Shown here in pieces: positions 12,809 to 61,650 of a stretch of 64,000 nucleotides of DNA. Position numbers and translations under genes: made by a program. The stretch's first letter is position 1. Every line of letters begins with the position of its first letter. Origin of the DNA: Deroplatys truncata (taxonomy: Eukaryota; Arthropoda; Insecta; Mantodea; Mantidae); contig CM060981.1 of assembly GCA_030765065.1 (NCBI GenBank), forward strand, positions 228,973,152 through 229,037,151, given 5' to 3'. The notes below the pieces were generated by a model that was given only the letters and a program-made list of their open reading frames with translations, was not told the DNA's origin and made no database searches.

Positions 12809-13604
12809 TTACTTTTTCTACTATGTAGGGGAAGTATTGTATTCCATCCAAAAATTCGATACCGTGATTTCACCGGAAATACAAATCCAAAAAAAACTGT
12901 GTGTGTGTCTATATGTGTCTGTGAACAGCATAACTCTGAAACGAACAGTCGGATAAACACCAAACTTGGTATTTAGGTTTAGTATCTTCCAGAGATGCGA
13001 CACGAAGGTTTTCAAGAAAATTCCCCCACCCCAGATTACCGTTTACATGGAACATTTTTCGAAAATTTTAATTTTCTCAAAAATGGCTCCAACGATTTTG
13101 ATTAAAATATCATATGTTTAAGATATTTTAATGACAAATGAAATGTATATCTCGAATTTTCTGGGAATGTCTCCAAAAGTATTCTTCATTGTGAGCGACT
13201 TTTGGATAACTCGTAAACCATAAGAGATAGAAAATCTTTTACTACACAAAATGTGCGTTAAAATATACAATTTATGTCATATACAGTTTTTTTGTTAGGT
13301 GAACCATTTTCGAGATAGCTTGTTATTCCCTTAAGTTTTCCAATACTTATACTTTTTCTCAAATTCGTTATTCATTTTTTTTTTTCCTGGTAATACAAAG
13401 AGAATGGAATACTCCACATAGCAACCAGCTCTTAAAATATTTGACTAACGCTTCAAGTCTAAGAATTCCCCTTGCACCTACAAGAAAATTAGCAATTAGA
13501 TTAACATCTCGATATCTCGATTAACATGAAGCATACGAGAATAAGCGTTTGTAAAAGTAGTTTGTACAAGGGTAGAAAAAGTCATGTGAGTGTAACACAT
13601 CAGA
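12809..13604 (+). repeat. WR1 full-length copy
   Basis: It begins TTACTTTTTCTACTATGTAG and ends with the hairpin block CATGTGAGTGTAACACATCAGA, about 796 bp. The CA tract is short (TGTGTGTGTCTATATGTGTC). A good reference for both termini. Confidence 0.92.
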
Positions 13605-13954
13605 TTGTTTCATGTTTCCTCATAGATGAAAATCACAACACTTAAATCAGCCAATCCTGATTATTGTTTGTGCAAACAATATCTCTATGCATTGACTACA
13701 GACCAGTATTCGCGTCATGCAAGGGAATATCGTGTGCGGAATTGGATTTCTCTGTGCTCCAATATTTGTTATTTTGCAACGAAGCATACACATATAAATA
13801 GAACCATGGTTCATCAGAGTAGAAAATTAAGCGTGGATGAATTATTCTTATCATTTCCCAAAATCCAATTGCAAAGTTTACTCAACTGTGATGATTACAT
13901 GAAGAATAAGATGTATGCAACAAACTCTATGTATTGTAAAAACTAAAAGTAAGC
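13605..13954. other. Unassigned sequence with a 106-codon open frame
   Basis: The open frame at 13626-13946 (+) begins MKITTLKSANPDYCLCKQYL. It has no recognisable domain, signal peptide or membrane segment, and sits between a WR1 copy and a dispersed repeat. I do not consider it a supported gene. Confidence 0.3.
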
Positions 13955-14200
13955 ATCAGACGAGAAATTCGTTCATTTTCGGATATTGAACTGTCGAGTG
14001 TAAATGAAAATTTCCAAAGAAGATACCAGAGCTGTGTGGATAGAGAAGGACAATATTTACTACATATTTTATCATAGGGTATGTGCCTTTTATCATTGTA
14101 GTTGTAAGAATAAGAATGTGAGGCGGTTGCGGGGATATTATAATTGTTTCGACGGAGTCTTGGATGTAGCGGCCGGCGCGCGAGCAGCCGTGCCATGGAC
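13955..14200 (-). repeat. Dispersed repeat, copy 2 of an inverted pair
   Basis: The inverse counterpart of 12545-12775. Shared blocks include GCGGTTGCGGGGATATTATA and CAGACGAGAAATTCG. The two copies face each other across the WR1 copy at 12809-13604. Confidence 0.6.
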
Positions 14201-14631
14201 ATAGTGTGACGGAAAGCACTGTATAAGGTCCTTCATTAGCCATATTAACAATTCAAAAGTGAAGTTCTAACGAGTGGAGGTAGAGCGTGGCATCACGTTT
14301 CTGTCTTGCAGTCTCTATGCTGGGTGATAGAACAAAACTGGGATTTCTTATAGGTTTACACAAAATATCGACTTCATTTTGAAAACAGATACAAATTATA
14401 TTGACATATAACTACAATAAGTGGGCCGCAGTATACTCAGTTTTAATTTCTGTCTGTTCTCCATGTGCTTCCATCTCATTATGCAAGATCCGTCATAGTA
14501 CTGTAAAATTATTATTTATGTGGGTGGATACGAAGTAACGAATATTTGGGTATTCTCTCTGCACTTTTAGCTAAGGTCGGATGGTTTCCTCGACTATTTT
14601 TCTCAGTGTTGCGTGAACTTCAGACAAAAAC
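14201..14631. other. Unassigned sequence
   Basis: No feature that I can support. Confidence 0.4.
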
Positions 14632-15432
14632 TCTGATGTGTTACACTCACATGGCATTCTCTACTCTTGTACAAACTATTTTTACAAACGCTTATTCTCC
14701 ATATGCTTCATGTTAATCGAAATGTTAATCTTATTGCAAATTTTCGTATAGATGCAAGGGGAATATGGTAGACCTTAAGCGATAGTCAAATATTAAGAGC
14801 TGGTTGATATGTGGAGTATTCCATTCTCTTTGCATGTCCAGGACAAAAAAATGAATAACAAATTTGAGAAAAAGTTTTAAGTATTGGAAAATTTAAGGGA
14901 ATAACAAGCAATATCTCGAAAATGTATATGACATAAATTGTGTATTTTAACGCGATCTACATTCTTTGTGTAGTAAGATTTTGTCTATCTCTTATGGTGT
15001 ACCAGTTATGCAAAAGTCGTTCACAATGAAGAATACTTCCGGAAACATTGCCAGAAGATTCGAGATATACATTTCATTTGTCATGAAAATATCTTAAACT
15101 GATATTTTAATCAAAATCGTTAGAGCCATTTTTGAGAAAATTAAAATTTTCGAAAACTGTTCCATGTAAAGGGTAATCTGTGGTGGGGGGATTTTCTTGA
15201 AAACCTTCGTGTCACATCTCTGGAAGATACTGAGCCTAAACACCAAGTTTGGTGTTTATCCGACTGTTCGTTTCTGAGTTATGCTGTTCACAGACACACA
15301 CGGACATGTTTCCAAAAATGCATTTTAGGGATTCAGGGGGTTTCAAAACATATATTTTCGGTGAAATCTGGGTATCGAGTTTTTGGGTGGAATACAATAC
15401 TTCTCCTACTTACTATACTAGTAGAGAAGGTA
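14632..15432 (-). repeat. WR1 full-length copy
   Basis: It runs from TCTGATGTGTTACACTCACA (hairpin end, after an A run) to the terminus near 15432, about 801 bp. The CA tract is short (CAGACACACACGGACA). Confidence 0.92.
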
Positions 15433-15479
15433 AAAAGTGTTATTGTGCTGTCTGTAATTGTTCAAATCATAAAAATCTA

Positions 15480-16584: not shown

Positions 16585-17448
16585 AACGACACAGGTAGCG
16601 GAATAAGTCCAAGGCTGAAGTGCGTCCAGAACAATGACAGGAATCTGTATCAAGACAAGACAAGATTTTTGAAATCAAAGCTTTATGATACAAAGTCCCA
16701 CCGACTCAGAGGTGAATTTTTGAGTGCTCGGAGTTTGAAACTTGCAAAGTTCATGATGAAACAAATGTGAAAACGAAGTATTAAATGTTCAAGAATGGAC
16801 GAACAAATGTGTATGACAAAACTCGACCCAGACGTTCGTGACTCAGTAGAGATTATGTGAAGATTCAAGTGAACAACAATATCCTAAAGGACAGACGTGT
16901 AACCCTAGATGAGTTAAAGATTTATTTCTTAAACATATGCCGTTCTTTGCTTGGTGCAATTGTATCCAAACATCTTAGTTTAATGGATTAGCGATAGCCG
17001 ATTACAACGCGGGAGTTCTAAAACTCGTGGGCAGTTATGGCAAATGCTTGAATAACGTATGTATAGAAATAATTTGCAAGTGACATGTCTGTTTTAATAC
17101 AATACCATCTTTGAATGTATTAAAGTCAAACGTCTTTACTTCCTGCATGATACTCGTAATTGGTTCAGTTTAATTCAATACAATACGTCCAAGACTTTCA
17201 ACGTTGTGCTTTTGCGATAACAAACTTTCAAAATCCATTCCACTATTACAGCCTTTTTACACAGCAAATATCAAAGGTGTTTCTAATTTAGATTAACCAG
17301 TCCTTTCATCACTTCTTATAGGTACATGTCGACCATATTTATTAAATTGTTTTTAAGCATTGTTCCTATGCTAACTGCAAATATGATAATTTCTATTTTT
17401 TGCGGCATACGTGAATTGCAAGGTGATTATCACCCATCGGTACCGAGC
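16585..17448. other. Unassigned sequence
   Basis: It may include the 3' untranslated part of the LINE remnant just after 16584. Otherwise nothing recognisable. Confidence 0.35.
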
Positions 17449-17870
17449 GGGATGGTTCAGGTGGCAATGTCTGTGGTCCGCATTTGGGAGGTATCGGAAT
17501 CGATCCCCGGTGAACACCCACTCTAGCCCATGGGTTTTTCGTGGTTTCCTCGGGTTACCAGAAGAATGCTGGGGTACTTCACCTTCTACCACGACTCTCC
17601 TCCCTCTCATTTCCTGTGCACATCATCTTCCTTGTTATCTGTTTCCGCCCCGGAGACCCTGGAGGATGGTTACTTGTAGGCGGGGACCTGATGCGTTCTA
17701 CCTGGAAAAGTTAGGGACCCCATCCACGCTTACGCCCGTCGACATCCGGATTTGGTCGCCCTTGGCGCTTCTCCTCTCATCCCTCCCTCCCAGGGGTCAC
17801 GTTGGAAGCAAACAGGGCCGTTCCGACCTACTTGCAGTACTCTGGCCCGGTTCGGGGGCCCATCAATAGT
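17449..17870 (+). mobile_element. tRNA-derived SINE, family S2 (tail type b)
   Basis: It starts TACCGAGCGGGATGGTTCAG. The A-box-like head and the B-box-like GGAATCGATCCCCGG mark tRNA ancestry and RNA polymerase III transcription. The core has CCCATGGGTTTTTCGTGG and GAATGCTGGGG. The tail, from GCCCCGGAGACCCTGGAGGA, matches the truncated copy at 15776-16078. It is one of the most complete S2 copies here. Open frames of 80-150 codons across it are by-products. Confidence 0.8.
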
Positions 17871-18514: not shown

Positions 18515-18516
18515 TA

Positions 18517-19751
18517 CAGGGTCATTAAAACATATGGTAACCCATTTCGCGGGCTCTCTTCACAGCACGGGAAGCGAGAGTCGCCGGGAAAATTGTGCCA
18601 TCAGAGGCGCACTAAAATCCTTATAATAGATGCTCGAAATGTTGACCTTCTGCGCTCAAACAGCTAGAATATCTTGTAAAAATGTTTTCGCTCAGTCGGC
18701 TAAATTCCTTGTGATTTCTTGAAGATGTTAACAATAATTTCCTGTAAGTACGATGGTAAGAATGATATGTGCTTCTTTTCTTTCAATGAACCCCACAAAC
18801 AAAAGTCGCCACTAGTTAGGTTGGGGGAACGATGGGGCCATAAATTAACACCTATAATTCTTCATGAAACACCTCATTTAATTTATTTCATGATCCGGTA
18901 GCCATATGTGCTGCTGCAGAATCTTGTTGAAACCAAACATAAGCTTTTTCTTCTTCTCTCAAGCGATCAAAAGAAGTCCCTAGAATTAGTCTCCGATATC
19001 TCTCTGCACTGTTTCTTTAAAGAAAAGGGGTCCTATTACTCTTTTAGCACTTATCGCGCACCACATTGCATTTTCAGGTCATAGTGGGGCGCTTTTTCAT
19101 GTAACGCACAGATTTTTCTGCTGAAAGAAAAAACTGCGGATCAATGAAACCACTTTCTACAGATCGGAAAAACCAATTGCACAAATTCACTCACTTACAG
19201 GGATAATTTTGTTTCAACGTTGCACTCTATTATGGCGATAGAGTTTTAGTTTTAACAAACGTGTAGCATTTCTCGCAGAACACCTGTTTGTTGAGCTAAT
19301 TTGTTTAGCGATTTTCGAGGCCTTCGCTCTAAAGCGGCGCCGATTTCATCTAGTTTAACTTCGTTAACACTGATCTCCCCTTAGAATGTTTTTCTTCTGC
19401 AACACCGAACTCGAAGCTTCAAATTTATTCACGATCGCATGTATAGTTTTCCTTGCAGGTGGTACAGAGTTTGAAAATCTTTCAACAAACTCCCTGCGCA
19501 CACGGCGAGCAGGTTCGTGTTTAAAGTAAACTTTGCGAATAAACACACTTTCTTTCCAGAGTAAGTGACGCACCTTGTTTACTGTATCGACAGAGACACC
19601 TGACTGACTCCTTCTGACACAGTAATAACAGTGAGACAGGCGCCAATGCACTTTCGAGCGGGAATTGACCGTCCTAAGTCCCGCTAGATCGCGAAGGAAG
19701 AGCACAGGAGAGAAAGCCGCGAATGGGTTACCATATGATTTAATAACCCTA
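18517..19751 (-). mobile_element. Tc1/mariner-superfamily transposon (DUF4817-type)
   Basis: Ends are CAGGGTCATTAAAACATATG at 18517 and its imperfect inverse, RC TAGGGTTATTAAATCATATG, up to 19751. TA flanks both ends (18515-18516, 19752-19753). The inverted similarity runs about 35-40 bp and includes GGTAACCCATT and CGCGG. Length 1235 bp. One broken transposase lies inside on the minus strand. Confidence 0.88.
18621..19705 (-). pseudogene. DUF4817/DDE-type transposase, broken
   Basis: The N-terminal part is clear: WKESVFIRKVYFKHEPARRV, FVERFSNSVPPARKTIHAIV and NKFEASSSVL. This is the helix-turn-helix region found at the start of a large insect transposase group (annotated as DUF4817 in many arthropod genomes). 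Downstream the frame is broken many times, but pieces of the DDE domain remain, notably LWPHRSPNLTSGDFCLWGSL, with the family's usual W-P-x-RSPDLT-x-DF-x-LWG pattern. The end reads GQHFEHLL then a stop at 18621. A normal member has about 340 residues, so the span is near full length, but no product is possible. Family assignment rests on motif memory, not a search. Confidence 0.82.
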
Positions 19752-19753
19752 TA

Positions 19754-20647
19754 TAAGGTTTATCTGGTCGCTCAATTTTTGGTCTTACATGCTCTTTACA
19801 AGACGCTGTGTATATAGTAATTATAGTAATAAAAATCAGTTATTACCTCGCTAAACTTTAAGAATGCTTTGACAGCTTGTATCTTCGGTAGGTAGCTGTG
19901 TTGAAATGATATGGATTTATCCACAAATTTTATTTTTTTTAAGTGCTTGTGTCGTGATATTTCCTCAACCGTACAAATTCTGACAGGATTTTACTGACTA
20001 AAGACTCAATTAATCAGGGTTGTTCGGCTTCAATGATTTATTTGCTTCAACTACAAAATACCCCATTATACCATCTATATAACGGAGTGCATGGCATATA
20101 CTCAAGAGGATGTAAATTTGCAGTTTCAGCTTATGCTCCTGAAGCCAGTATATAATATCCACTGATTCGGATGTTTCAAATATGGCCTACTACCATTAGG
20201 TCCTTGGAGATTGCAATCTGAAGCACAACCTTGGAAAACTGTAACGCAGATTAAAATGTTAGATATAATTTACACCTCATAAATAAATGAAATACAGTCT
20301 GCATGTTGGTCCCCAATCGTCCAGAAAATGAAATTTTGCTGTAAACAATTGTACATTCGAGAGCTTTGTATGAAGGTTCTCAGAACCTCCATACGCGTAG
20401 ATGTTTGGAATATCGCATCAATCAACAGGGGAAACATTTCGAGCTCCTATTCAATGAGTGAAGTCTGTATAACAGTACCGTTAGATGACGATGATGATGA
20501 TAATAATAGTAAAAATAAAATTTACAATACAACTTTTATGCATTATATTAACATTTACAAACAGTAGTGAAAGACTGCGTCCGCTCATGTATGTTGCTTA
20601 CCGTCCGAAATGTTAGACAAGAACAGCGTAAACGCAATTTAAAAAAA
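19754..20647. other. Unassigned sequence
   Basis: No gene or repeat seen in about 0.9 kb. A short GATGATGATAATAAT-like tract lies at about 20490-20520. Confidence 0.4.
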
Positions 20648-20923
20648 CCTGATGTGTTACACTCACATGACTTTCTCTACTCCTGTACAAACTATTTATT
20701 CAAACGCTTATTCTCCATCTACTTCATGTTAATCGAGATAAACATTTGCAGACTCTATCTTATTGCTAATTTTCTTGTAGATGTAAGCGAAATATATATT
20801 TACAAGGGCATTTGGAAATACAGTAGCCTTTAAGCACATACATATCTCTTAATAGCTGGTTGCTAGGTGCACCATTCCCTTTGCCACAGATTAATACTCT
20901 CTGCATATCCAAGACAAAAAAAA
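20648..20923 (-). repeat. WR1 3'-end fragment (left arm of inverted duplication)
   Basis: It starts with the hairpin end CTGATGTGTTACACTCACAT and carries the variant block CTTAATAGCTGGTTGCTAGG. It matches 24979-25261 in inverse orientation, including the variant TTTGCCACAGATTAATACTC, so it belongs to the inverted duplication. Confidence 0.88.
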
Positions 20924-21832
20924 TCTGATGTGTTACACTCACATAACTTTCTCTACTCTTGTACAACCTAATTTTACAAACGCCTATTCTCCATATGCTT
21001 CATGTTAATCGAGATATCGAGATGTCAATCTTATTGGTAATTTTCTTGTAGATGCAAGGAAAATATGGTAGCTTTTAAGTGATAGTCAAATATTTTAACG
21101 CTGGTTGCTATGTGACGCATTCCATTCTCTTTGCATGTCCAGGACATAAAAAAAATGAATAACGGATTTGACAAAAAGTATAAGTATTGGAAAATTTAAG
21201 GAAATAACAAGCAATATCTCGAAAACGGTTCACTCAACAAAAGAAATGCATATGACATAAGTTATGTATTTTAACGCGATCTACATTTTTGTGTAGTAAA
21301 ATTTTGTCTATCTCTTATGGTTTACCAGTTATGCAAAAGTCGTTCACAATGAAGAATACTTTTGGAGACATTCCCAGAAAATTCGAGATATACATTTCAT
21401 TTCTCATGACATTACCCTAAACATATGATATTTTCATCAAAATCGTTAGAGCCATTTTTGAGAAAATTAAAATTTTCGAAAAATGTTCCATGTAAAGGGT
21501 AGTCTGGGGTGGGGGGATTTTCTTGAAATCCTTCGTGTCGCATCTTTGGAAGATACTGAACCTAAATACCAAGTTTGGTGCTTATCCGATTGTTCGTTTT
21601 TGAGTTATGCTGTTCACAGACACACACACACACACACAGACACACACACACAGACACACAGATACAGACACACACACACACACACACAGACACACACACG
21701 GACATATTTCCAAAAATGCGTTTTTTGGATTCAGGAGGTCTCAAAACGTGTATTTCCGTTGAAATCTCGGTATCGAATTTTTGGGTGGAATGCAATACTT
21801 CCCCTACTTACTATACGTAGTAGAGAAAGTAA
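20924..21832 (-). repeat. WR1 full-length copy with long CA tract
   Basis: It runs from TCTGATGTGTTACACTCACA to the terminus near 21832, about 909 bp. The internal CA tract (21613-21700) is longer than in most copies and is interrupted by CAGACA units. It contains variants (ACAACCTAATTTTACAAACG, TTTTAACGCTGGTTGC) shared only with the copy at 24130-24978. Confidence 0.93.
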
Positions 21833-22258
21833 AAATGAATAACGAATTCCCATTTGAGAAAACAAGTATTGAAAAATTTAATGGAATAACAAGCAATATC
21901 TCGAAAATGGTTCACTCAATAAAAAAAATGTATATGACATAAATTGTGTATTTTAACGCGATCTACATTTGTTATGTAGTAAAATTTTGCCTATCTCTTA
22001 TGGTTTACCAGTTATGCAAAAGTCATTCACAATGAAGAATACTTTTGGAGACATTCCCAGGAAATTCAAGATATACCTTTTATTTGTCATGAAAATATCT
22101 TAAACATATGATATTTTAATCAAAATCGTTATAGCCATTTTTGAGAAAATTAAAATTTTCGAAAAATCATCCATGTAAAGGGTAATCTGGGATGGGGGAT
22201 TTTCTTGAAAACCTTCGTGTCGCATCCTTGGAAGAGTAGTATACGTAGTAGAGAAAGT
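21833..22258 (-). repeat. WR1 internal fragment with deletion
   Basis: It begins inside the element (AACGAATTCCCATTTGAGAA) directly at the terminus of the previous copy. It then jumps from CGCATCCTTGGAAGA straight to the terminal hairpin block, losing about 170 bp that include the CA tract. Confidence 0.88.
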
Positions 22259-22875
22259 AAAAAGAAGAAGAACATGAAGCTCGCTCACGCTAATTCGCCA
22301 GTTCCTCACTGACCTGTGTTTACTTTAATTCGCCCCGTTCAGTTCTGCAACTCTTATCGCACGAAGGGAAATATGCATACTTGAAATACGGCGCGGTTGG
22401 GCCACCTGGTATGTCATTGAACGAAGTTATCTCCTGAAGAACATCACTGCACACCAAAGAGAACCTAGTAATGATTTCCCGTAAAGCTCCTGAGATGAGA
22501 ATATCCAAGGTCTTGCCTCCTGGCGCTCGGTATTCTAATTTATTTCACATCTGAAAGTGTTTGATGTACGACGAGAGCATACTATTGTGTCCTATTGTGC
22601 AGCGCATTAAGCAACACTTCATGGATTCTCTGAATAAACTCCGGATGTGTCGCTATAAATGGTGTAACCTCAACATTGCCATTTGACCAGACTACGTACT
22701 AAAGCCGATTTCAGACCTAAGTAGTGCTTAGGTATAGCTAATACGGTTTAATGTGTGTGGCACCACTCTCACTGTTGGATTTTCAGAATATGTTGCCTAT
22801 GTACAAACAGAACACTCAAATTCTTTCGTAATAGACTAAAATGTACAAGATCTATGCAACTTTGTGAAATAATTT
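22259..22875. other. Spacer between the arms of the WR1 inverted duplication
   Basis: About 0.6 kb without WR1 or any other repeat that I recognise. The short open frames have no family resemblance. Confidence 0.45.
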
Positions 22876-23488
22876 TTACTTTCTCTACTACGTATAGTAA
22901 GTAGGGGAAGTATTGTATTACACTTAAAAAATTCAATACCGAGATTTTACCAGAAATACATGTTTTGAGACCCCCTTAATCCAAAGAAAGCATTTTTGGA
23001 AACATGTCTGTGTGTGTATCTGTGAACAGCATAACTCAGAAATGAAAAGTCGGATAAACACCAAACTTGGTAATTAGGTTCAGTATCTTCCAGAGATACG
23101 ACACAAAGGTTTTCAAGAAAATCCCCCCACACCAGATTACCCTTTACATGGAACATTTTTCCAAAATTTTAATTTTCTCAAAAATGGCTTTAACGATTTT
23201 GATTAAAATATCACATGTTTAAGATATTTTCATGACAAATGAAATGTATATCTCGAATTTTCTGGGAACGTCTCCAAAAGTATTCTTCATTGTGAACGAC
23301 TTTTGCATAACTGGTATTCCATAAGAGATAGACAAAATTTTACTACACAAAAATGTAGATCGCGTTAAAATACACAATTTATGTCATATACATTGGTTTT
23401 GTTGAGTGAACCATTTTCAAGATATTGCTTGTTATTCCCTTAAAGTTTTCCAATACTTATACTTTTTCTCAAATTCGTTATTAATTTT
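22876..23488 (+). repeat. WR1 5' part
   Basis: It starts TTACTTTCTCTACTACGTAT and ends in the GAAAAAGT/TTCGTTATT region, where the next copy begins. The 3' hairpin half is missing. Confidence 0.9.
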
Positions 23489-24129
23489 TTACTTTCTCTA
23501 CTACGTACAGTAAGTAGGGGAAGTATTATATTCCACCCAAAAATTCGATACCGAGATTTCACTGGACATACATGTTATGAGACCCCCTGAATCTAAAAAA
23601 AGCATTTTTGGAAACCTGTCCGTGTGTGCGTGTGTCTGTCTGTGTGTCTGCCTGTGTGCCTGTCTGTGAACAGCATAACTCAGAAACGAACAGTCGGATA
23701 AACACCAAACTTGATATTTAAGTTCAGTATCTTCCAGAGATACGACACGAAGGTTTTCAAGAAAATCCCCCACCCCAGATTACCCTTTACATGGAAGATT
23801 TCTCGAAAATTTTAATTTTCTCAAAAATGGCTCTAACATTTTGATTAAAATATCATATGTTTAAGATATTTTCATGACAAATAAAATGTATATCTTAAAT
23901 TTTCTGGGAATGTCTCCAAAAGTGTTCTTCATTGTGAACGACTTTTGCATAACTGGTAAACCATAAGAGATAGAAAAATTTTACTACACAAAAAATGTAT
24001 TCCGCGTTAAAATACACAATTTATGTCATATACATTTTTTTATTGAGTGAACCATTTTCGAGATATTGCTTGTTATTCCATTAAATTTTTCAATACTTGT
24101 TTTCTCAAATGGGAATTCGTTATTCATTT
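23489..24129 (+). repeat. WR1 5' part (right arm of inverted duplication)
   Basis: It starts TTACTTTCTCTACTACGTAC. The CA tract contains TGTGTGTCTGCCTGTGTGCC. Its end, with the AAATGGGAATTCGTTATTC joint, is the inverse of the joint at about 21832 in the left arm. Confidence 0.9.
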
Positions 24130-24978
24130 TTACTTTCTCTACTACGTATAGTAAGTAGGGGAAGTATTGCATTCCACCCAAAAATCCGATACCGAGATTT
24201 CCCGGAAATACATGTTTTGAGACCTCCTGAATCCAAAAAAAGCATTTTTGGTAACATGTCCGTGTGTGTGTGTGTGTGTGTCTGTGAACAGCATAAATCA
24301 AAAACGAACAGTCGGATAAACACCAAACTAGGTATTTAGGTTCAGTATCTTCTAGTGATGCGACACGAAGGTTTTCAAGAAAATCCCCCCACCCCAGACT
24401 ACCCTTTACATGGAAGATTTTTCAAAAATTTTGATTTTCTCAAAAATGGCTCTAACGATTTTGATGAAAATATCATATGTTTAAGATAATGTCGTGAGAA
24501 ATGCAATGTATATCTCGAATTTTCTGGGAATGTCTCCAAAAGTATTCTTCATTGTGAACGACTTTTGCATAACTGGTAAACCATAAGAGATAAGACAAAA
24601 TTTTACTACATAAAAATATAGATCGCGTTAAAATACACAACTTATGTTATATACATTTCTTTTGTTGAGTGAACCGTTTTCGAGATATCGCTTGTTATTT
24701 CCTTAAATTTTCCAATACTTATACTTTTTCTCAAATTCCTTATTCATTTTTTTTATGTCCTAGACATGCAAAGAGAATGGAATGCACCACATAGCAACCA
24801 GCGTTAAAATATTTGACTATCGCTTAAAAGCTACCATATTTCCCTTGCATCTACAAGAAAATTAGCAATAAGATTGACATCTCGATATCTTGATTAACAT
24901 GAAGCATATGGAGGATAGGCGTTTGTAAAATTAGATTGTACAAGAGGAGAGAAAGTCATGTGAGTGTAACACATCAGA
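24130..24978 (+). repeat. WR1 full-length copy (right arm)
   Basis: It begins TTACTTTCTCTACTACGTAT and ends with the CATGTGAGTGTAACACATCAG hairpin. It is the inverse counterpart of 20924-21832 and shares private variants with it. Confidence 0.92.
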
Positions 24979-25261
24979 TTTTTTTTTCTTGGATATGCAG
25001 AGAGTATTAATCTGTGGCGAAGGGAATGGTGCTGCACCTAGCAACCAGCTATTAAGAGATATGTATGTGCTTAAAGGCCACTGTATTTCTATATTTCCCT
25101 TGTAAATATATATGTATTCCCCTTGCACCTACAAGAAAATTAGTAATAAGATAGAGATTGCAAATGTTTATCTCGATTAACATGAAGTAGATGGAGAATA
25201 AGCGTTTGTAAAAATAGTTTGTACAAGAGTAGAGAAATTCATGTGAGTGTAACACATCAGA
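24979..25261 (+). repeat. WR1 3'-end fragment (right arm)
   Basis: It carries the GAGAGTATTAATCTGTGGCG variant and the 3' hairpin. It is the inverse counterpart of 20648-20923. Confidence 0.88.
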
Positions 25262-25486
25262 TTTTTTTTATGTCCTGGACATGCAAAGAGAATGGAATGC
25301 GCCAAATAGCAATCAGCTTTTAAAACATTTGACTATCACTTAAAATCTACCATATTCCCCTTGCATCTACAAGAAAATTACCAATAAGATTGACATCTCG
25401 ATTAACATGAAGCATATGGAGAATAAGCGTTTGTAAAAATTGTTTGTACAAGAGTAGAGAAAGTCATGTGAGTGTAACACATCTGA
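25262..25486 (+). repeat. WR1 3'-end fragment
   Basis: From the GTCCTGGACATGCAAAGAGA block to the hairpin end, finishing CACATCTGA and then T-rich. It is a third 3' end in tandem with the preceding two. Confidence 0.88.
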
Positions 25487-25559
25487 TTTTTATCATTTTG
25501 TTGCATATAATGCATTTAACCAACATTGTGTCACCAATCAAATATTTATCCTACGAATT

Positions 25560-26540
25560 TTACTTTGTCTACTACTTAGTAAGTAGGAGAAGACCGAACA
25601 GGATGGCTGTGGCGGCAACGTCTGTGGCTCGCATTTGGGATGTTCTGGGTTCGATCCTAGGCGATCGTCTACTCCGACCCATGGGTGTTTTCTAGGTTTT
25701 CTCGTGTCGTCAGGCGAATGCTGGAGTGACTACAGCCCCGAATTTCCTGTCCTTCCATTTTGTTCCAATGACCATTTCTATTCATCCCTCACTCTTAGAT
25801 ATTTTTCAGGTTGGAAATGTCGGCGATGGCGTTTAGGTGGGGCGTGGCATGGAAAAAGGATGATTTCTGTTGAACTTTCTCAGTCTCTCGGGTTTGGGGC
25901 GAGAATTCCCGGTATGCTTGTCTGTCTGTCCCAATATAGAAATTGTATAGACCCTGTTATTGCTGTGCCGTCACTCCTCTCATCTCCTCTTCCCTCCCGG
26001 GTGCGCCCCCTCGTGGGGACACGGGTAAAATATCCTCACTGGAGCAGTGCGAGACCTCTCTGATAATCAAAAAAAGCAACCAGATGAAATACTGCATTCC
26101 ACCCATAAATTCAATATCGATATTTCACCGAAATTACACGTTTACGCCGAATTACACCCTGAATTAAAAACACAAAGTCCATGTGTTTTTATGTCTGTCC
26201 GTCTTGTCTGTGAGCACCATAACTCAGAAATAAAAACTCAGTTAAATACAAAACTTGGTATTTTAAACACAGCGTCTTCCAAAGTTGTGAAGGTTTTCAA
26301 GAAACTCCCCCAGCAGCAAATTACCCTTTACATTGAAAGCTTTTCGTTATTATTTTTATTTACTCAAAAACGGATGTAATGATTTTAATTATAATACCAC
26401 ATGTTTAGGCAAATAAAACGTGTATATTGAATTTTCTGGGAATAGCAGGTGAAGTCCTTTTCGTTTTGAATTACTTCTGTATAACTAGTAAACCATAACG
26501 GATAAACAAACCTTACTACAAAAAAATGTTTATGTCAAAC
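25560..26540 (+). repeat. WR1 old copy split by a SINE
   Basis: The 5' end TTACTTTGTCTACTACTTAG is at 25560-25593. After the SINE the copy resumes at about 26080 with ACTGCATTCCACCC and continues to about 26540. It is heavily diverged and lacks the 3' hairpin. Confidence 0.78.
25594..26065 (+). mobile_element. tRNA-derived SINE, family S2 (tail type a), nested in WR1
   Basis: The head is ACCGAACAGGATGGCTGTGG, followed by AACGTCTGTGGCTCGCATTT and the B box GGGTTCGATCC, the best-preserved B box of the family here. The core has CCCATGGGTGTTTTCTAGG and AGGCGAATGCTGG. The tail shares CCCGAATTTCCTGTCC and CTGTGCCGTCA with 6257-6775. The insertion separates the WR1 terminus from its body. Confidence 0.82.
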
Positions 26541-27539: not shown

Positions 27540-27726
27540 TGTAGTAATCCTTTTACTAGGTATTTTCTAATATTTTTCACATTTATCTTAGCTGCGTCCC
27601 TCGTCGTGACCTTGCATAATGTAAATTATTAACTTTTAGAGTTGCGAGTCGCTCTACCCCCCATTGAGCTAGTCTGTTTAGAGGTCACCACATTATTTTA
27701 CAAAGTCGAGCGCTGTCTAAAAAAAT
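27540..27726. other. Unassigned sequence
   Basis: Nothing recognised before the next WR1 copy. Confidence 0.4.
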
Positions 27727-42004: not shown

Positions 42005-42014
42005 ATTTTTTTTA

Positions 42015-49189: not shown

Positions 49190-50122
49190 AAATGTTGGTA
49201 TCCAAACTTGGTATTTAAATTCAAAGATTTCCAAGAAAAGCCAAGCCGCTCTTTACACGGAACGTTTTTCGAAATGTTTTCATTTTCCGAAAAATATCTC
49301 GAACGACTTTAATTAAATATATATATATGTATTAAAGGTATCTATTTGCATTAGAAATAAAATATATATCTTGAATTTTATGCAAATAGTTGTTAAGTCA
49401 TTATTTGGAAATAATTTTTTGTAACCTTGCACAACCGGTAAACGTTAAGCGATAGACGAAAACGTACTCCACAAGAAATATAGGTCTCTTTAAAACAGAC
49501 AACTTACTTCCAATAAATTTTTTGTGGCATCAGCATTTCGAAATATCCGTTATTAATGCTTCGAGTTGTTCAATACTTAGCCAGTCTTTTAAACTCCTGT
49601 CAATTTTCATGGAAAGAAATGGAATTTTAGGCCAGCGTATAGCGCCCAGTTCTAAAACATTTGACTATCGCTATTCCCTTTGTATGTATAATAAAATATG
49701 TAATGCAGCTATTTCTGGAAAGTTTTATCGCGATTAAAATGAAGTAGATAGGAAAATAAACATTCATGTGAATAGAATCAGACGACTGAAAAATTCAATA
49801 CCATAACCGGGATTTGAACCACGGATCTCCAGGTTTCCGTCCGGTTGCTCTAACCACTGAGCTACCATGGAAACATGCCGGCCCGACATTAAATTCTCCA
49901 ACTGATTCACATTTTTCCCTGTGAATAACAAGGAGATCTCAAATTGTATCCATATGGCATACCCCAATGGCGACTTACAATGTTGTATTTTAAGTCGTCT
50001 GATTCTACCTGTCCAACACGCGGCTTGTGTGGATGAACAGTTAATTCCATTGATATGAATAGTTTGCATGCCGAGTAATAAATGATAGAGGGTAGAAAAA
50101 CACTCGTGAATATAGCACATGT
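49190..50122 (+). repeat. WR1 old copy interrupted by a tRNA-bearing insert
   Basis: WR1 sequence at 49190-49772 (CCAAACTTGGTATTTAAATT to AACATTCATGTGAA) resumes at about 50063 and ends with CTCGTGAATATAGCACATGT. The 5' end is missing. It belongs to the older subfamily. Confidence 0.75.
49773..50007 (-). mobile_element. Short element with 15-bp perfect inverted ends and an internal tRNA-like sequence
   Basis: TAGAATCAGACGACT at 49773-49787 is the exact inverse of 49993-50007. With TA read as target site, the ends would be 13 bp, as in a Tc1/mariner-type MITE. Inside, on the minus strand (49800-49872), lies GGTAGCTCAGTGGTTAGAGC with a perfect A box, and GTGGTTCAAATCCCGG with a perfect B box at the right distance, plus a D-arm (GCTC/GAGC). 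Alternatively, imperfect direct repeats CATTCATGTGAATAG (49761) and CATTGATATGAATAG (about 50047-50063) bracket a larger insert, which would fit a SINE with target duplication. Confidence 0.7.
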
Positions 50123-51004: not shown

Positions 51005-51733
51005 TTGCAGAAACTATCTTATTGCTAATTTTCTTGTAGGTGCAAGTGGAATATGGTAGGTTTTAAGCGATAGTCAAATATTTAAGAGCTGGTTGCTATA
51101 TGGAACATTACATTCTCTTTGCGTGTCCAGGACATAAACAAGAATAACGAATTCCTATTGGGGAAAAAGTATTGTAAAATTCAAACAAATCACAAGAAAT
51201 ATCTCGGAAATGGTTCACTCCAGAAACAAAAAAAAGTATATGGCATAAATTGTGTGTTTTAAAGGGCTCTACATTTTTTTTGTGTAGAAAAATGCCTATC
51301 TCCTACGGTTTACAAATTATGGAAAAGTCATCCAGAAAGAAAACGACTTCTGAGGACATTCTCAGAAAATTCAAGATATACGTTTTATTTGAAAATACCT
51401 TAAACATATGATATTTTAATCAAAATCGTTAGAGTCGTTTTTGAGAAAATCAAAATGTTCCAAAAATGTTTCACGTAAAGTGTAGTCTGGGGTGGCAGGG
51501 TTTTCTTGAAAATCTTACGTCGCATTTATGAAACACCGTGAACCTAAATAACAACTTTGGTGTTTTTGTGACTTTTCGTATTGAGTTACTTTGTTCACAC
51601 ACAAACCTTTTCTAAAAGTACTTTTTTGTATTCAGGGACCTCAAAACATGTATTTCCGGTGAAATCTAATTATCGAAGTTTTGGGTGGAATGCTATACTT
51701 CCTCTACTTATTATAAGTACTAGAGAAAGTAAA
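51005..51733 (-). repeat. WR1 copy lacking the 3' hairpin
   Basis: From TTTGCAGAAACTATCTTATT to TTATAAGTACTAGAGAAAGT. Moderately diverged. Confidence 0.85.
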
Positions 51734-52058: not shown

Positions 52059-53011
52059 TTACTCTCTCTACTACGTATAGTAAGTAGGGGAAGTATTGTA
52101 TTCCACCCAAAAATTCGATACCGAGATTTCACCGGAAATATATGTTTTGAGACCCCCTGAATCCAAAAAAATCATTTTTGGAAACATGTCCGTGTGTGTG
52201 TGTCTGTGTCTGTGAACAGTATAACTCAGAAACGAACAGTCGGATAAACACCAAACTTGGTATTTAGGTTCAGTATCTTCCAGAGATGCGACACGAAGGT
52301 TTTCAAGAAAATCTCCCCACCCCAGATTACTCTTTACATGGAACATTTTTTGAAAATTTTAATTTTCTCAAAAATAGATCTAAAGATTTTGATTAAAATA
52401 TCATATGTTTAACATATTTTTATGACAAATAAAATGTATATCTTGAATTTTCTGGGAAGGTCTCCAAAAGTATTCTTCATTGTGAACGACTTCTGCATAA
52501 CTGGTAAACCATAAAAGATAGACAAACATTTACTACAGCAAAATGTAGATCGCATTAAAATACACAATTTATGTAATATACATTTTTGTTGTTGAGTGAA
52601 GCATTTTGGAGATATTGCCTGTTATTCCCTTAAATTTTTCAATACTTATTTTCTCAAATGGGAATTCGTTATTCATTTTTTTGGCTTGGATATGCAAAGA
52701 GTATTAACCTGTGGCAAAGAGAATGGTGCTGCACCTAGCAACCAGCTATTAAGATATATGTCTATGCTTAAAGGCTACTGTATTTCTATATTACCCTTGC
52801 AAATACAAAACAAGGGGAACATAGTACGCCTTAAGCGATAGTCAAATATTTTTAGAACTGGTCGCTATGTTTAAAACGTAATTCTCTTTGCATGTCAAAG
52901 ATCGTTGCTGCAAATGTTTATCTCGATTAATATGAAATAGATGGAGAATAAAAGTTTGTAAAAATAGTTTGTACAAGAGTAGAGAAAGTCATGTGAGTGT
53001 AACACATCAGA
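52059..53011 (+). repeat. WR1 full-length copy, long form, well preserved
   Basis: It begins TTACTCTCTCTACTACGTAT and ends CATGTGAGTGTAACACATCAG, 953 bp. It is the best-preserved long-form copy, with the CA tract as TGTGTGTGTGTCTGTGTCTG. A suitable reference copy. Confidence 0.94.
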
Positions 53012-53084
53012 TTTTTTAATTTTACTATTGTCTTATGTTTAGTGCATTTGGGTCGTGGTATTAAGTATCCAATCTGGTATTTGC
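53012..53084. other. Spacer between WR1 copies
   Basis: T-rich spacer. Confidence 0.4.
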
Positions 53085-53460
53085 CTTGGGAAGCCATAAG
53101 GTTGTATTTGACGTAAACTATACACTTTACCGATATCTACATGTTTTGTGTAGTAAGGCTATGTCTATTTCTTATAGTTTACGAACTATACAAAACTTAT
53201 TTAGAACGAAGAGGACTATCCACAGAAAGTTTTAAGTTATACATGTTTTTCTCATACAAATGTCTTAAGCATGTTTTTTAATCAAAATTGTTTTAGTCAT
53301 TTTTTAGGAAATAAAAAAAGCTCAAAAGCTTCCGTGTAGAATGTAGTTGTAGTGGGCTACTTTATTAAAAATCTTCGTTCACATCCTCGGAAGACGCTGA
53401 ATTAAAACTCTGAGTTTGGAATTTAACCAACTTTTCGTTTTTCAGTTGAGCTGTTTATAG

Positions 53461-55578
53461 ATACCCACACACACCACCCACACACCACACACATACACCC
53501 CACACACACACCACACACATACACCCCACACACACACACCACACACACTCACCCCACACACACCACACACATACACCCCACACACACCACACACATACAC
53601 CCCACACACACCACACACACTCACTCACACCACACACACTCACCACACACACCACCCACACACCACACACATACACCCAACACACACCACACACCCACAC
53701 CACACACACCACACACACTCACCCCACACACACACCACACACACTCACCACACACACACACTCACCACACACCACACACCCACACCACACACACCACACA
53801 CACTCACCACACACACACCACACACACACCACCCACACCACACACATACACACCACACACACTCACCCCACACACACCACACACCCACACCACACACATA
53901 CACACACACCACACACACTGACCACACATACTCACCCCACACACGCAGCACACACACTCACCACACACCACACGCCACACACATACACCCCACACACACT
54001 CACCACACGCCACACGCCACACACCCACACACATACACCCCGCACACACACACCACACGCCCACACCACACACACCACACGCCACACACATACACAACAC
54101 ACACGCACCACACACACTCACTCACCACACACCCACACACATACACCACACACACACCACACACACATACACACACACCACACACACTCACCCCACACAC
54201 CCAGCACACACACTCACCACACACCACACGCCACACACCCACACACACATACACACACCACACACACACACCACACACATACACACACCACACACACACA
54301 CACACCACACACATACACACACCACATACACATACACACACCACACACACTCACCACACACACTCACCCCACACACTCAGCACACACACTCACCACACAC
54401 CACACGCCACACACCCACACACATACACCCCACACACACTCACCACACACCACACACACACCACATACATCATACACACACCACACACACCACATACATC
54501 ACACACACCACATACATCACACACACACCACATACATCACACACACACCACATACACCACACACATACACACACCACATACATCACACACACACCACATA
54601 CATCATACACACACCACATACACCACACACATACACACACCCACACATACACACTCCACACGCACACACACCCACATACCCACACACATACACACACCCA
54701 CATACCCACACACATACACACACCACACCACACACACATACACACACCACACACACACACCACATACATCATACACACACCACATACACCACACACACAC
54801 ACCACATACACCACACACATACACACACCACACCACACACACCACATACACCACACACACACACCACACCACATACATCATACACACACCACATACACCA
54901 CACACACCACATACACCACACACACACCACACCACATACATCATACACACACCACACCACATACATCATACACACACCACATACACCACACACACCACAT
55001 ACACCACACACACACACCACACCACATACATCATACACACACCACATACACCACACACACCACATACACCACACACACACACCACACCACATACATCATA
55101 CACACACCACATACACCACACACACCACACCACATACATCATACACACACCACATACACCACACACACACACCACATACCCACACACATACACACACCAC
55201 ACCACACACACATACACACACCACACACACACACACACCACATACATCATACACACACCACATACACCACACACATACACACACCACATATATCACACAC
55301 ACCACATACATCACACACACACTACATACATCATACACACACCACATACACCACACACATACACACACCACATATATCACACACACCACATACATCACAC
55401 ACACACTACATACATCATACACACACCACATACACCACACACATACACACACCACATACACCACACACATACACCACACACATACACACACCACATACAC
55501 CACACACCACATACACCACACACACATACACACGCCGCACACCACACATACGCACAGACCCACACACATACACACACA
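53461..55578. repeat. (CACACACC/CACACTCACC/CACATACACC)n minisatellite array
   Basis: More than 2.1 kb of CA-rich tandem repeats with superimposed units. Up to about 54460, CACACACCACACACACTCACC-type units dominate. After that, units with CACATACATCA and CACATACACCA take over. The boundaries coincide with the CA tract position of WR1. The array is free of stops on the minus strand, which creates many spurious Cys/Val-rich open frames. Confidence 0.95.
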
Positions 55579-55856: not shown

Positions 55857-55860
55857 TTTT

Positions 55861-55973
55861 CACACATACACACACACCACACACACATACACACACACCA
55901 CACACACATACACACACCACACACACATTCACACACACACCAGACACACACCACATACACCCCCACACACACT
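55861..55973. repeat. CA-rich array, distal part
   Basis: Continuation of the array beyond the SINE, with CACACACCACACACACATA-type units. Confidence 0.92.
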
Positions 55974-57392: not shown

Positions 57393-57482
57393 ATTTTTAA
57401 CAATTAAACGCACCCATATTCACTCCCACATTCATACTTCCCGACTCTTTTGGGAATAAGGAATGATTCTGTTTAAAAAAAT

Positions 57483-58388
57483 GTGATGTGTTACTCTCGC
57501 ATGACTCTCTCTACACTTGTACAAACTTTTTTTTAAAAACGCTTATTATCCATCTACTTCATGTTAATCGAGATAAACATTTGCAGAAACCACCTTAATG
57601 CTATTTTACTTGTAGGTCCAAGGGAATATGGTAGTCTTTAAGCGATAGTTAAATATTTTAAGAGCTGGTTGCTATATGGAGCATTCCATTCCCATTTGAG
57701 AAAAACTATAAGTGTTCGAAAATTCAAACAAATAGCAAGGAATATCTGGAAAATGGTTCACTCAACAAAAAATGTATATGACATAAATTGTGTGTTTTAA
57801 CGAGATCTGTATTTTTTATGTAGCAAAGTTTGTCTATCTCTTGCGGCAAGGGTGGCGAAAATGCCTTTCTCTCTCGAGTCATCAAATATGCAACACGCAC
57901 TACACCACTCAGCCGCACATGGAAAACAAATGAATAGACGGCTAGAAAAGGAGTTGCGCCTGCGAGACACACTGCCTCGCGAGTCGCGTTTTCGCCACCA
58001 CAGTCTTACAGTTTACCGGTTATGCAAAATTCATTCAGAATGAAGAGGACGTTTGGGAACATTCCTACAAAATTCATCATATACACTTTATTTGCCACAA
58101 AAGTATCACAGTCATTTTTGAGAAAATTCAAATTTTCAAAAAATGTTCTATGTAAAGGGTAGTCTGGGATGAGCGCAGTTTCTTGAAAATTTTCGTGTCG
58201 CATCTTTGAAAGATACTAAACCTAAATACCAAGTTTGGTATTTATCCGACTTTTCGTTTTGAATTATGTTGTTCACAGGCACACACTGGAATCTTTTTCT
58301 GAAAATGTATTTCCGGTGAATTCTCAATATAGAATTTTTGGGTGGAATGCAATACTTCCGGGCTTTCTATATGTAGTAGAAAAAGTAA
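57483..58388 (-). repeat. WR1 copy carrying a hAT-like MITE
   Basis: It begins TGTGATGTGTTACTCTCGCA and ends CTATATGTAGTAGAAAAAGT. The WR1 block TCTATCTCTTACGGTTTACC is split by an insert at 57847-58003. Confidence 0.85.
57847..58003. mobile_element. hAT-like MITE, 157 bp
   Basis: Ends CAAGGGTGGCGAAAATG and RC CTGTGGTGGCGAAAACG form inverted repeats of the hAT type (C-A/T-x-GGTGGCxAA). It is flanked by TCTTGCGG (57839-57846) and TCTTACAG (58004-58011), 6 of 8 identical, an ageing 8-bp target duplication as hAT elements make. No coding content. Confidence 0.78.
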
Positions 58389-59349: not shown

Positions 59350-59515
59350 TTAGAAAACGATCCATTTGTGTCTGCCTGTCTGTAAAAAGCCCAACTCAAA
59401 AGTAAAAAGTAGGTTAAGTACCAAATTTAGTATTTAACTTCGTCCTCCAAGGTTACAACGTGAAGATTTTCAAGAAAATCCTGTAATCCTAACTACGCCT
59501 TACATGGGAAAAGTT
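59350..59515 (+). repeat. WR1 old fragment
   Basis: Only CCAAATTTAGTATTTAACTT, GAAGATTTTCAAGAAAATCC and neighbouring words are recognisable. Confidence 0.6.
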
Positions 59516-59521
59516 TACTTA

Positions 59522-60303
59522 TTACTTTCTCTCCAACGTATAGTAAGTATATTCAAAAAAATCGACAACGATATTTCACCGGAAATGCATGTTTTGAGGC
59601 CCCGAATCCAAAAAAAGAACTTTTACAAAAACTGATGTGTCTGTGACAGCATAACTTACTATTTAGGTCCCGTACCTTTCAAAAATGCGACACGTAGATT
59701 TTCAAGAAAATCCTCCCACCCCAGACTACCCTATACATGGAAGATTTTTCGAAAAAATTGATTTTTTCAAAAATGGCTTCAACGATTTTAATTAAAACGT
59801 CATATATTTTAAGATATTTTATGAAAAATAAAATGTATATCTTGAATTTTCTGGGAATGTCCCCAAAAGTACTCTTCTTTCTGAATGGCTTTTGCCTAAC
59901 TGGTGAACCGTAAGAGATAGACAACATTTTTCTACACCAAAAATTTAGAGTTCATTAAAACACACAATTTATGTCATATACATTTTTTATGGAGTGACCA
60001 TTTCCAAGATATCCCTTGTATTTGTTTGAATTTTCCAATGCTTATACTTTTCTCATGTGAATTAGTTATTCCTTATTTATGTCCAGGACATGCAAAGAGA
60101 ATTGAATGGTCCACAGAGCAACCAGATCTTAAAAGATTTGACTACCGATTAAATCCTACCATATTCCCCTTGCATGTACAAGAAAATTAGCAATTAGTTT
60201 CTGCAAATGTTTATTCTGATTAACATGAAGTAGATGGAGAATAAGTGTTTGTAAGAATAGTTTGTACAAGAGTAGGAAAGGCATGTGAGTGTAACATATC
60301 AGG
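59522..60303 (+). repeat. WR1 full-length copy, diverged
   Basis: It begins TTACTTTCTCTCCAACGTAT and ends CATGTGAGTGTAACATATCAG. The CA tract is reduced to GTGTCTGTGA. Confidence 0.88.
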
Positions 60304-60470
60304 GTTTTTTCCCCTGAAAATTGGCTCTAAGGATTTTAGGTAAATTACCATGTGTTTGATATATGCATGGCAACTATAATGTATATTTTAACTTTTCTGT
60401 GATTAGCCTGTCAAGTTCTCTTCATTTTGAATTAATTTTATACTATTTATTGCATCTATACTAGGGCCAC
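60304..60470 (+). repeat. WR1 old fragment
   Basis: Words of the central part (AAAATTGGCTCTAAGGATTT, AGTTCTCTTCATTTTGAATT) remain. Confidence 0.55.
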
Positions 60471-60479
60471 AGATCGCAT

Positions 60480-61650
60480 ATATGCGTAGCTCGCTAGCAC
60501 CGCACTAACCTCCGTATGTTCTACTAGCGCACTAGCGGTGAAGAGGTGCTTAAGTTTAGCAGCTGTTCTACTGTGTCGGTTGCTGCCTTCTGTTCGAATT
60601 GTAAAGAAGTTCGTTTATTGTGCATCTCAAAACTGAAAGTTTCCTTAAGACAACTGTGTTGTGTGTGAATTGCAATAGAGTTTTCCTATTATACCACTGA
60701 AATACTTACCAAAACGCTCGCGCATGAACTAAGAATTTTTATGTAGAATGCAGGCTGTGGACATTTTGAGGCAAAATTTCTTGGTTTTCCAGTTCCGGGT
60801 TTATATAGGTTAAATTTAGTTAGGACAATGGGGTCGCTAAACCTAAGAAGCGAAAAAGACAATACGTTCTAACAGAGGAAAACAAGCAGTATCTCGAAAA
60901 TGGTTCACTCAACAAACAAAATGTATATGACATAAATTGTGTATTTTAACGCGATCTACATTTTTGTGTAGTAAAATTTTGTCTATCTCTTATGGTTTAT
61001 CAGTTATGCAAAAGTCGTTCACAATGAAGAATACTTTTGGAGACATTCCCAGAAATTTCAAGATATACATTGCCATAAGCTGTCTTAAACATATGATACT
61101 TTAATCAAAATCGTTAGAAACCTTTTTGAGGAACTAAAGATTTAAAGATTTTCCAAAAAATGTATCATGTAAAGGGTAATCTGGGGTGGGAGGATTTTCT
61201 TGAAACCTTCGTGTCGCATCTCTGGAAGATACTGAACCTAAATACCAAGTTTGGTGTTTATCAGACTGCTGTTTCTGAGTTATTCTGTTCACAGACACAC
61301 ACAGACATGTTTCCAAAAATACTCTTTTTGGATTCAGGGGTCTCAAAACATACATTTCCGGTGAAATCTCGGTATCGAATTTTTGAGTGGAATACAATAC
61401 TTCCCCTACTTACTATACGTAGTAGAGAAAGTAAAAATTGATGAAATTGGTGCATCGTTCGAACGCTATCCAAAGAAGTGGCATAGACGTGTTGCACAGT
61501 AAGTGACTGTTTCAAAAACCTGTATTCATAGAGCTGCTAACATTTTAACATTGATACCCTACAGAGTGACTATAGTTCACCTCGTGGCAACGAAGAATGT
61601 CAGAAATGTCCATGCATATGAACACCACTTTCAACAAAGATTAGTACTCA
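60480..61650 (+). pseudogene. DUF4817-type transposase, internally deleted and split by WR1
   Basis: The N-terminal part before the insert includes TKTLAHELRIFM and AKFLGFPVPGLYRL, then a KKRQYVLTEEN-like block. These correspond to SLEQRLFMYDTYV, FAGVPVPSRETVR and RRVLTEEKLDEI of the better-preserved copy at 44266-45368. A WR1 copy follows at 60883-61434. The frame resumes KIDEIGASFERYPKKWHRRV, then IPYRVTIVH. It then jumps straight to a scrap like the extreme C-terminus (AYEHHFQQRL against AEEHRFQHRL). The whole catalytic domain is therefore missing. No inverted repeats were identified at the ends. Confidence 0.8.
60883..61434 (-). repeat. WR1 copy lacking its 3' part, nested in a transposase remnant
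   Basis: It starts inside WR1 (CAGTATCTCGAAAATGGTTC) and ends with the intact 5' terminus GTAGTAGAGAAAGTAA. Because the host sequence on both sides is known from the related copy at 44201-45559, this copy defines the WR1 5' boundary to within a few bases. Confidence 0.9.

Follow-up and report, generated by a model that had tools for sequence, protein, structure and literature searches.

WR1, an abundant HINE-like repeat of the mantis Deroplatys truncata, shares its ends with an autonomous Helentron of the same genome

This study examined WR1, an abundant non-coding repeat noticed in a 64,000-nt stretch of the Deroplatys truncata genome (GCA_030765065.1, contig CM060981.1, positions 228,973,152 to 229,037,151; hereafter the window, numbered from its first base). 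Our data indicate that WR1 is very probably a HINE, namely, a non-autonomous Helentron moved as rolling-circle DNA by the Rep/helicase/endonuclease protein of an autonomous Helentron in the same genome. At the sequence level, this reading is based on a shared 5' block, a near-identical 3' terminus, the coding hallmarks of the Helentron, insertion into T-runs without duplication of non-T bases, empty sites, and nested arrays. The original prediction, made from the window alone, had inferred a Helentron derivative; this inference is supported, and none of the results that it had named as contrary was seen.

Architecture, ends, and target sites of WR1

Searches of the window with the 5' word TTACTTTCTCTACTACGTA (up to three mismatches) and the 3' hairpin word ATGTGAGTGTAACACAT (up to two) gave 19 and 13 matches, respectively, against a mean of 0.05 and a maximum of 1 for either word in 20 mononucleotide shuffles. 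A BLAST search with a consensus of the element returned 47 high-scoring segment pairs (HSPs), of which 18 reached the 5' end and 18 the 3' end. These counts confirm the abundant repeat that had been predicted. The six positions singled out in the original prediction are copy ends: 12809, 41052, and 52059 are 5' ends on the plus strand, and 14632, 20924, and 27727 lie at the 3' ends of minus-strand copies. Its range of 12809–61434 does contain WR1 copies, but diverged ones also lie outside it, such as the A-block pieces found by BLAST at 6870–7680 (minus strand).

BLAST comparisons within the window divide WR1 into a 5' block A of ~620 bp and a 3' block B of ~230 bp. The 857-bp consensus of 11 aligned copies opens with TT and ACTTTCTCTACT, beside which stands an inverted copy; a microsatellite (GT/CA), a body rich in A and T, and eight Ts lead to block B. 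Towards the 3' end, the word returns inverted as AGTAGAGAAAGT, followed by a weak 5-bp hairpin, CAGA, and a run of mostly 5–7 Ts. The predicted order of 5' word, microsatellite, inverted word, hairpin, CAGA, and T-run therefore holds for the 11-copy consensus but not for every single copy, since c43185 is cut inside the hairpin and c29232 lacks the first bases and the microsatellite. On the strand of the element, the microsatellite described earlier as CA is a GT repeat. A longer block B marks three window copies (27719, 41052, and 52059), called the long form here, the other being the short form; these two forms, the nested arrays, and a 14-pair 5' hairpin were missing from the earlier description.

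HINEs carry subterminal inverted repeats of 12–15 bp (13 bp in DINE-1), at least 11 of them identical within a family, with the 5' copy 2–4 nt inside the end. The repeats of WR1 measure 12 bp; the 5' one reads TT|ACTTTCTCTACT, and its subterminal 3' counterpart reads AGTAGAGAAAGT. The palindrome or second inverted repeat expected beside the 5' repeat of a HINE is also present, as a 14-pair stem within the first 36 nt (z = −2.05; equalled by 4 of 200 shuffles). Near the 3' end, where HINEs have a palindrome or stem-loop of 5–10 bp, both the WR1 consensus and the Helentron described below contain ATGTG/CACAT, which could pair as a weak 5-bp stem. WR1 has 5' TTAC, 3' CAGA plus Ts, and a T-run target, and not the 5' TC, 3' CTRR, and insertion between A and T of canonical Helitrons.

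The ends were tallied over loci that included the best matches to the query (L002–L008, a non-random set that was counted for ends, targets, arrays, and nesting and excluded from abundance and from the restricted nesting tally); L001, which is the window DNA, and L009 were excluded from the end and array counts. At 55 clean 5' ends, T occupies positions −3 to −1 in 85, 87, and 80%, and A or C precedes them in 73%; among the 56 clean 3' ends, T makes up 86–96% at each of the first five bases after CAGA. No target-site duplication beyond Ts was found in 28 copies with clean flanks, where the mean adjacent repeat was 1.46 versus 1.19 for shuffled partners (standard deviation of the means 0.30) and repeats of at least 6 occurred in 1 copy versus 0.27 expected; duplications at WR1 ends had been named beforehand as evidence against a Helentron origin. 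As the targets are themselves T-runs, a duplication of Ts only would be indistinguishable from Ts belonging to the element. Apart from such a possible T-only duplication, WR1 shows the TT or T-rich target without target-site modification that characterizes HINEs.

The joined flanks of twelve insertions were compared with their best matches, and in the best cases T-run empty sites were found, namely, in L005, for window 41051, for the nested window insertions at 24129 and 42168, and twice in L020, so that the boundaries are confirmed by paralogous empty sites, as for other HINEs. The clearest empty site lies inside the Helentron: in a copy on contig C8, a complete WR1 interrupts eight consecutive Ts that are unbroken in a copy on C4. 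The match for L021-7990 lacks a further 21 bp, and the comparisons for window 52058, window 59521, L002, and L003 are too diverged to inform.

An autonomous Helentron with the same ends

A genome profile search for Helitron_like_N gave at least 152 matches, with 150 of 291 candidates scored; among the matches listed, 18 have open frames of at least 2000 aa (maximum 2543), 17 of them in a band of 103–106 bits. One Helentron copy was read through (L030, L031). The element is ~10.2 kb long, and a 2405-residue stretch contains Herpes_teg_N (which we take to be an OTU-like protease), DUF6570, Helitron_like_N, PIF1, and a Pif1 2B domain. Its C-terminus matches Exo_endo_phos_2 (PF14529) with 28.1 bits, just over the curated cut-off of 27.4, and thus carries the endonuclease fusion of Helentrons; PF03372 scored 19.2, below its cut-off of 24.5, an NCBIfam search with the protein gave no match, and a PDB search with the C-terminal 255 aa gave none at E up to 0.1. 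The Rep motif VEFQMRGSPHEH has S between G and P (RGSPHEH), a residue given as diagnostic of Helentrons (PMC4067079).

Approximately 0.9 kb past the stop codon of this copy lies the WR1 3' terminus (35 of 37 bases identical), and WR1 block A occurs twice upstream of the frame. The search for an autonomous Rep/helicase Helentron with shared ends, recommended in the original prediction, was therefore successful, and the element with these ends encodes Rep, PIF1, and endonuclease instead of the DDE transposase or reverse transcriptase that would have argued otherwise. Beyond the copy read through, reading covered both ends of four copies and then a further 17 3' ends and 10 5' ends. The resulting 22 copies, with both ends sought in 15, were chosen by an open frame of at least 1100 aa and are thereby biased to young elements.

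The WR1 terminus is present in all 22 Helentron 3' ends (16-base word, up to two substitutions), together with CAGA (CATA in one), a T-run, and then differing flanks; by BLAST, the Helentron and WR1 3' termini of five copies are 94.6–95% identical over 37–40 bp. One copy, L066/L056, begins with a single block A, and no further WR1 was found within the 609 bp before and the 392 bp behind the copy. Because of these 22 termini and the extremes of L066/L056, we place the 5' end of the Helentron at block A and its 3' end at the hairpin terminus, and WR1 thus has a Rep/helicase/endonuclease partner with the same ends. For copies with two A blocks, the outer block was considered as the Helentron's own 5' end and set aside, L066 having one A block only.

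The long form of WR1 is related to the Helentron over more than its termini. In the three long copies, the first 840–857 bp correspond to Helentron positions 1–871 (88–89% identity) and the last 37–40 bp to 10128–10164/10167 (84–93%), so these copies look like internal-deletion derivatives of the Helentron, a pattern close to the one by which HINEs have been tied to Helentrons (PMC4067079). The last 350 bp of the Helentron show pairwise identities of 94.8–100% (median 99.1%) among the 22 3' ends, and the doubled 5' blocks of two copies do not differ at all; such near-identity suggests recent Helentron movement.

Two further observations concern the Helitron-like genes. By eye, the Helentron frame contains in-frame tandem units beginning KMKNTKNLKGREIK near L030 7315–8658, and the open frames of several copies (2261, 2324, 2345, 2387, and 2408 aa) have lengths separated by multiples of 21 aa. 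Another group of Helitron_like_N matches has higher scores and perhaps represents older, different Helitrons; four of them (G000:C1:38116489, C13:170325206, C4:128870265, and C16:246487701) score 187–196 bits and contain one stop codon each.

Nested arrays, abundance, and mode of movement

The longest T-run of the consensus is the A/B boundary, with eight Ts, and WR1 copies are frequently joined there. Of 74 WR1 5' ends, 19 stand immediately behind WR1 sequence (consensus positions 622–627 in 9, a 3' terminus in 4, and other points in 6), and of 72 3' ends, 14 stand immediately before it (620–622 in 7, a 5' terminus in 4, and other points in 3); all junctions at the A/B run, nine of 5' ends and seven of 3' ends, are in the same orientation. 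In the window and the sampled pieces only, the run accounts for 6 of 14 such 5' ends and 4 of 11 such 3' ends, and all six internal 5'-end cases in the same orientation lie at this run, which holds about one-tenth of the bases in T-runs of at least four. Among 144 chains of units, 11 have at least three units (6 of them in L002–L008), 23 are plain A-B, and most others are single or partial blocks. The array at 22876–25490 (plus strand), with the order A-A-A-B-Bmid-B, is as expected from three elements inserted one inside another, successively at the A/B T-run; other full-length arrays include A-A-B, A-A-A-B, A-B-B, and A-B-B-B, one each.

The Helentron shows the same kind of junction. It is followed by the start of block B (consensus 618–622) in 9 of 22 copies and by WR1 at other positions in 3 more; a 5' piece was read for seven of these nine, and it shows a block A finishing immediately before the Helentron in four and unrelated DNA at that place in the C10 copy, the other two pieces having ended too early to tell. 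Two 5' blocks, joined by one common junction A1|A2, occur in 11 of the 15 copies with a 5' piece, a single own block occurs in 3, and 1 is undecided; the outer end, read in 9 of the 11, adjoins unrelated DNA or WR1 ends. The two 5' blocks of the C10 copy match those of the C1 copy at 99.7% identity, but of these two copies only C10 has a trailing block B. These structures are most simply explained by insertion of a Helentron into a WR1 and later replication that began at the outer 5' end and ran to either the first or the second 3' end; the use of more than one start and stop is suggested by the forms that carry additional blocks. For the short doubled 5' ends of the composite FoHeli of Fusarium oxysporum, a comparable self-insertion model has been proposed, in which the nested element then transposes as the stretch between the outer 5' end and the first 3' end (PMC5148889).

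The A-A-B-B arrays might instead be ordinary tandem or segmental duplications, and local duplication may also occur, as the window array at 20644–22260 (minus strand; A(deleted)-A-B-Bmid) is an inverted copy, collinear at 94–95% identity, of the inner part of the 22876–25490 array. Head-to-tail duplication would, however, give ABAB, whereas the observed order is A..A B..B with junctions at element ends and at the A/B T-run, and scattered Helentron loci have block A before and block B after in 4 of the 7 cases with both sides read. Duplication as the general origin of the arrays is hence unlikely, and plain tandem duplication was judged less likely on account of the A..A B..B order.

Abundance was estimated from twenty 10-kb pieces at round coordinates on seven contigs (C1–C4, C6–C8) of the same 4.29-Gb assembly. 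WR1 covers 18,288 of 64,000 bp (28.6%) in the window and 34,713 of 200,000 bp (17.4%; bootstrap 11–25%) in the sample, with matches in 17 of 20 pieces; at 80% identity or more, the sample share is 9.5% (4–16%). As controls, the reversed consensus covers 28 bp of the samples and 28 bp of the window, and five shuffled consensuses gave no match. The 40 5' ends and 35 3' ends in 200 kb correspond, by crude extrapolation, to ~0.86 and ~0.75 million genome copies. Such a share is not unheard of, since helitrons of all families make up 7–20% of the repeatome in gomphocerine grasshoppers (PMC7486953). Identity to the consensus over 69 HSPs of at least 300 bp has a median of 81% and a 10–90% range of 70–93%, by which many copies look old, and more than one wave of WR1 is likely. 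A scan of viral contigs for the WR1 5' word gave one match, read as chance, contig L009 being without WR1.

Drawing on what is known of Helitrons and Helentrons, we propose that the Helentron protein would act in trans on WR1 ends and nick the 5' end, that the helicase would unwind from there, and that replication would stop where the subterminal repeat and hairpin of the 3' end lie. The intermediate, either single-stranded or circular, would then enter a T-run, aided by the endonuclease. The array types further suggest that the internal run of eight Ts between A and B may be WR1's own preferred target, in which later copies nest in the same orientation, and that nests may move as units from either 5' block to either 3' terminus. 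WR1 and the Helentron might thereby form a self-feeding system in which waves nest in the A/B T-run and free choice of start and stop makes new transposing forms; the commonest long-frame Helentron, with two 5' blocks, would have arisen in this way, and the process would have helped WR1 to reach ~0.75–0.86 million copies in 4.3 Gb. We give this broader proposal an even chance.

Several results weigh against WR1 being moved by the Helentron found. A single Helentron copy was read through, the others at their ends. L066 and the C4 copy agree over the first ~880 bp of the head (93.9%) and differ beyond that, and ~80 bp of the long form (841–920) has no Helentron match. The short form shares block A with the Helentron, but its block B shares only the last 35–40 bp and a weak 60-bp stretch; over its last 60 bp, 47 of 65 columns are identical, below the 80% over the last 60 bp used to define a subfamily (PMC4067079), so the Helentron found belongs to the same family as the short form without being its closest partner. 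The 3' hairpin, predicted earlier and present in the consensus, pairs over only 5 bp, and its folding is no stronger than that of shuffled sequence (WR1, z = −0.46; Helentron, z = −0.60). Nesting counts are few and not independent, as nests can move as units. Lastly, the well-matched empty sites all lie at T-runs, in agreement with the predicted insertion at TT, but one weak candidate (L020-6564, 70% over 107 bp) has no T-run.

These points leave some room for movement of WR1 by a different rolling-circle element, for example a Helitron2-like one without endonuclease, the Helentron found merely sharing or having captured WR1 ends. Other Helitron_like_N matches do score higher (up to 196 bits), many with stop codons, and most of the short-form block B is absent from the Helentron. 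Against this stand the terminus at every Helentron 3' end examined, the L066/L056 copy with WR1 at both extremes and none in the flanks read, and the collinearity of long WR1 with the Helentron head over 840–857 bp, which make a different mover quite improbable. That WR1 is a miniature inverted-repeat transposable element (MITE) of a cut-and-paste transposon with subterminal inverted repeats is scarcely credible and was rejected: it is short, non-coding, and very abundant with inverted repeats at both ends, and abundant repeats in another large insect genome have been classed as MITEs by software (PMC5691397), but its ends are asymmetric with the 3' repeat subterminal and not terminal, it has no non-T target duplication, and the element with the same ends encodes Rep, helicase, and endonuclease.

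Window copies, neighboring features, and known systems

BLAST and alignment to the consensus place short-form copies at 12809–13610 (plus; A block 12809–13382, B block 13377–13610), 14622–15433 (minus), and 31919–32747 (plus), a copy with internal deletions at 29228–29965 (minus), and a diverged copy at 59522–60310 (plus). Long-form copies lie at 27719–28697 (minus), collinear with the Helentron head and 3' end; at 41052–42012 (plus), with paralogous empty sites at window 34028–33701 and 33163–33048 and at L021:1214–1553; and at 52059–53018 (plus), whose positions 1–840 correspond to Helentron 1–871 (88.3%) and 921–960 to the Helentron 3' end (92.5%). Further diverged copies were located at 51016–51732 (minus; BLAST) and 57478–58388 (minus), and the copy truncated inside the hairpin at its 3' end at 43185–44019 (minus). 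Single A blocks occur at 33212–33799 (plus), head-to-tail behind a diverged 3' terminus ending near 33205; at 60876–61434 (minus; word search and BLAST), with its 5' end at 61434; and at 25560–26527 (plus), in two parts (25560–25592 and 26086–26527). The latter block is split by an insert of ~490 bp (25593–26085), which must be younger than its WR1 copy; the insert contains the word GGTTCGATCC by eye, and its translation resembles, again by eye, the open reading frame at 17390–17869.

Other features of the window include an irregular 2.1-kb CA array (53466–55578 and 55861–55972), far larger than the WR1 microsatellites and adjoining a diverged WR1 at 53103–53485. Likely transposon remnants lie at 44170–44796 and 19364–19759 (DUF4817 helix-turn-helix over the cut-off) and at 9524–9919 (HTH_Tnp_Tc3_2 below the cut-off). 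At 49799–49871 (minus), an Rfam tRNA family match of 38.7 bits without an ARAGORN tRNA call is perhaps a tRNA-derived repeat or pseudogene. Elsewhere in the genome, another repeat with several copies ~75% alike (L021:1166–3860 and 8612–9078; L005) carries a WR1 insertion in L005, and diverged WR1-like ends are present in L021; WR1 may be part of a wider set of related HINEs.

WR1 appears to be a new HINE/Helentron family within a known superfamily, with unusual abundance, a recent-looking partner, and an unusual amount of nesting; no such family in this setting is described in the listed titles and abstract beginnings from word-based, not sequence-based, searches of the open-licence literature. 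For want of an autonomous partner, elements resembling DINE-1 have frequently resisted classification or been filed as MITEs (PMC4067079), and in a 4.2-Gb stick-insect genome, software assigned the commonest repeats to the MITE class (PMC5691397). Here, the non-autonomous form, the deletion relation, and an apparently recently active long-frame Helentron occur together in one genome, of which this one family forms a large part.

Compared with DINE-1/INE-1 of Drosophila (PMC2374699), WR1 likewise has a block A with a microsatellite, a block B, subterminal inverted repeats with a second inverted repeat beside the 5' one, a putative 3' stem-loop a few nucleotides past the 3' repeat, and TT or T-rich insertion sites; it differs in repeat sequence and length (12 versus 13 bp), in its 3' stem (5 versus 7–11 bp), in its far higher estimated copy number, and in the T-run at the A/B boundary that receives further copies. 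With the HINEs and Helentrons of a mite, Culex, and Drosophila (PMC4067079), the present system shares a Rep/PIF1/endonuclease protein with S in the Rep motif, an autonomous element accompanied by a deletion derivative with the same ends, and a target unmodified save for variable Ts, whereas the Herpes_teg_N domain in the same frame sets this Helentron apart, and the 3' repeat ends 22 nt before the CAGA end as opposed to 38–60 bp from the 3' terminus in the mite families. The composite FoHeli (PMC5148889) similarly combines several 5' termini with one 3' terminus; its 5' duplications are typically short (<200 bp) and no endonuclease is present, whereas whole 5' blocks of ~650 bp are doubled here, at 11 of 15 Helentron 5' ends, in addition to arrays with extra 3' blocks. 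The series A-A-B, A-B-B, and A-A-B-B, together with near-identical Helentron copies with and without a trailing block B, constitutes a natural record that fits alternative initiation and termination, as the self-insertion model predicts.

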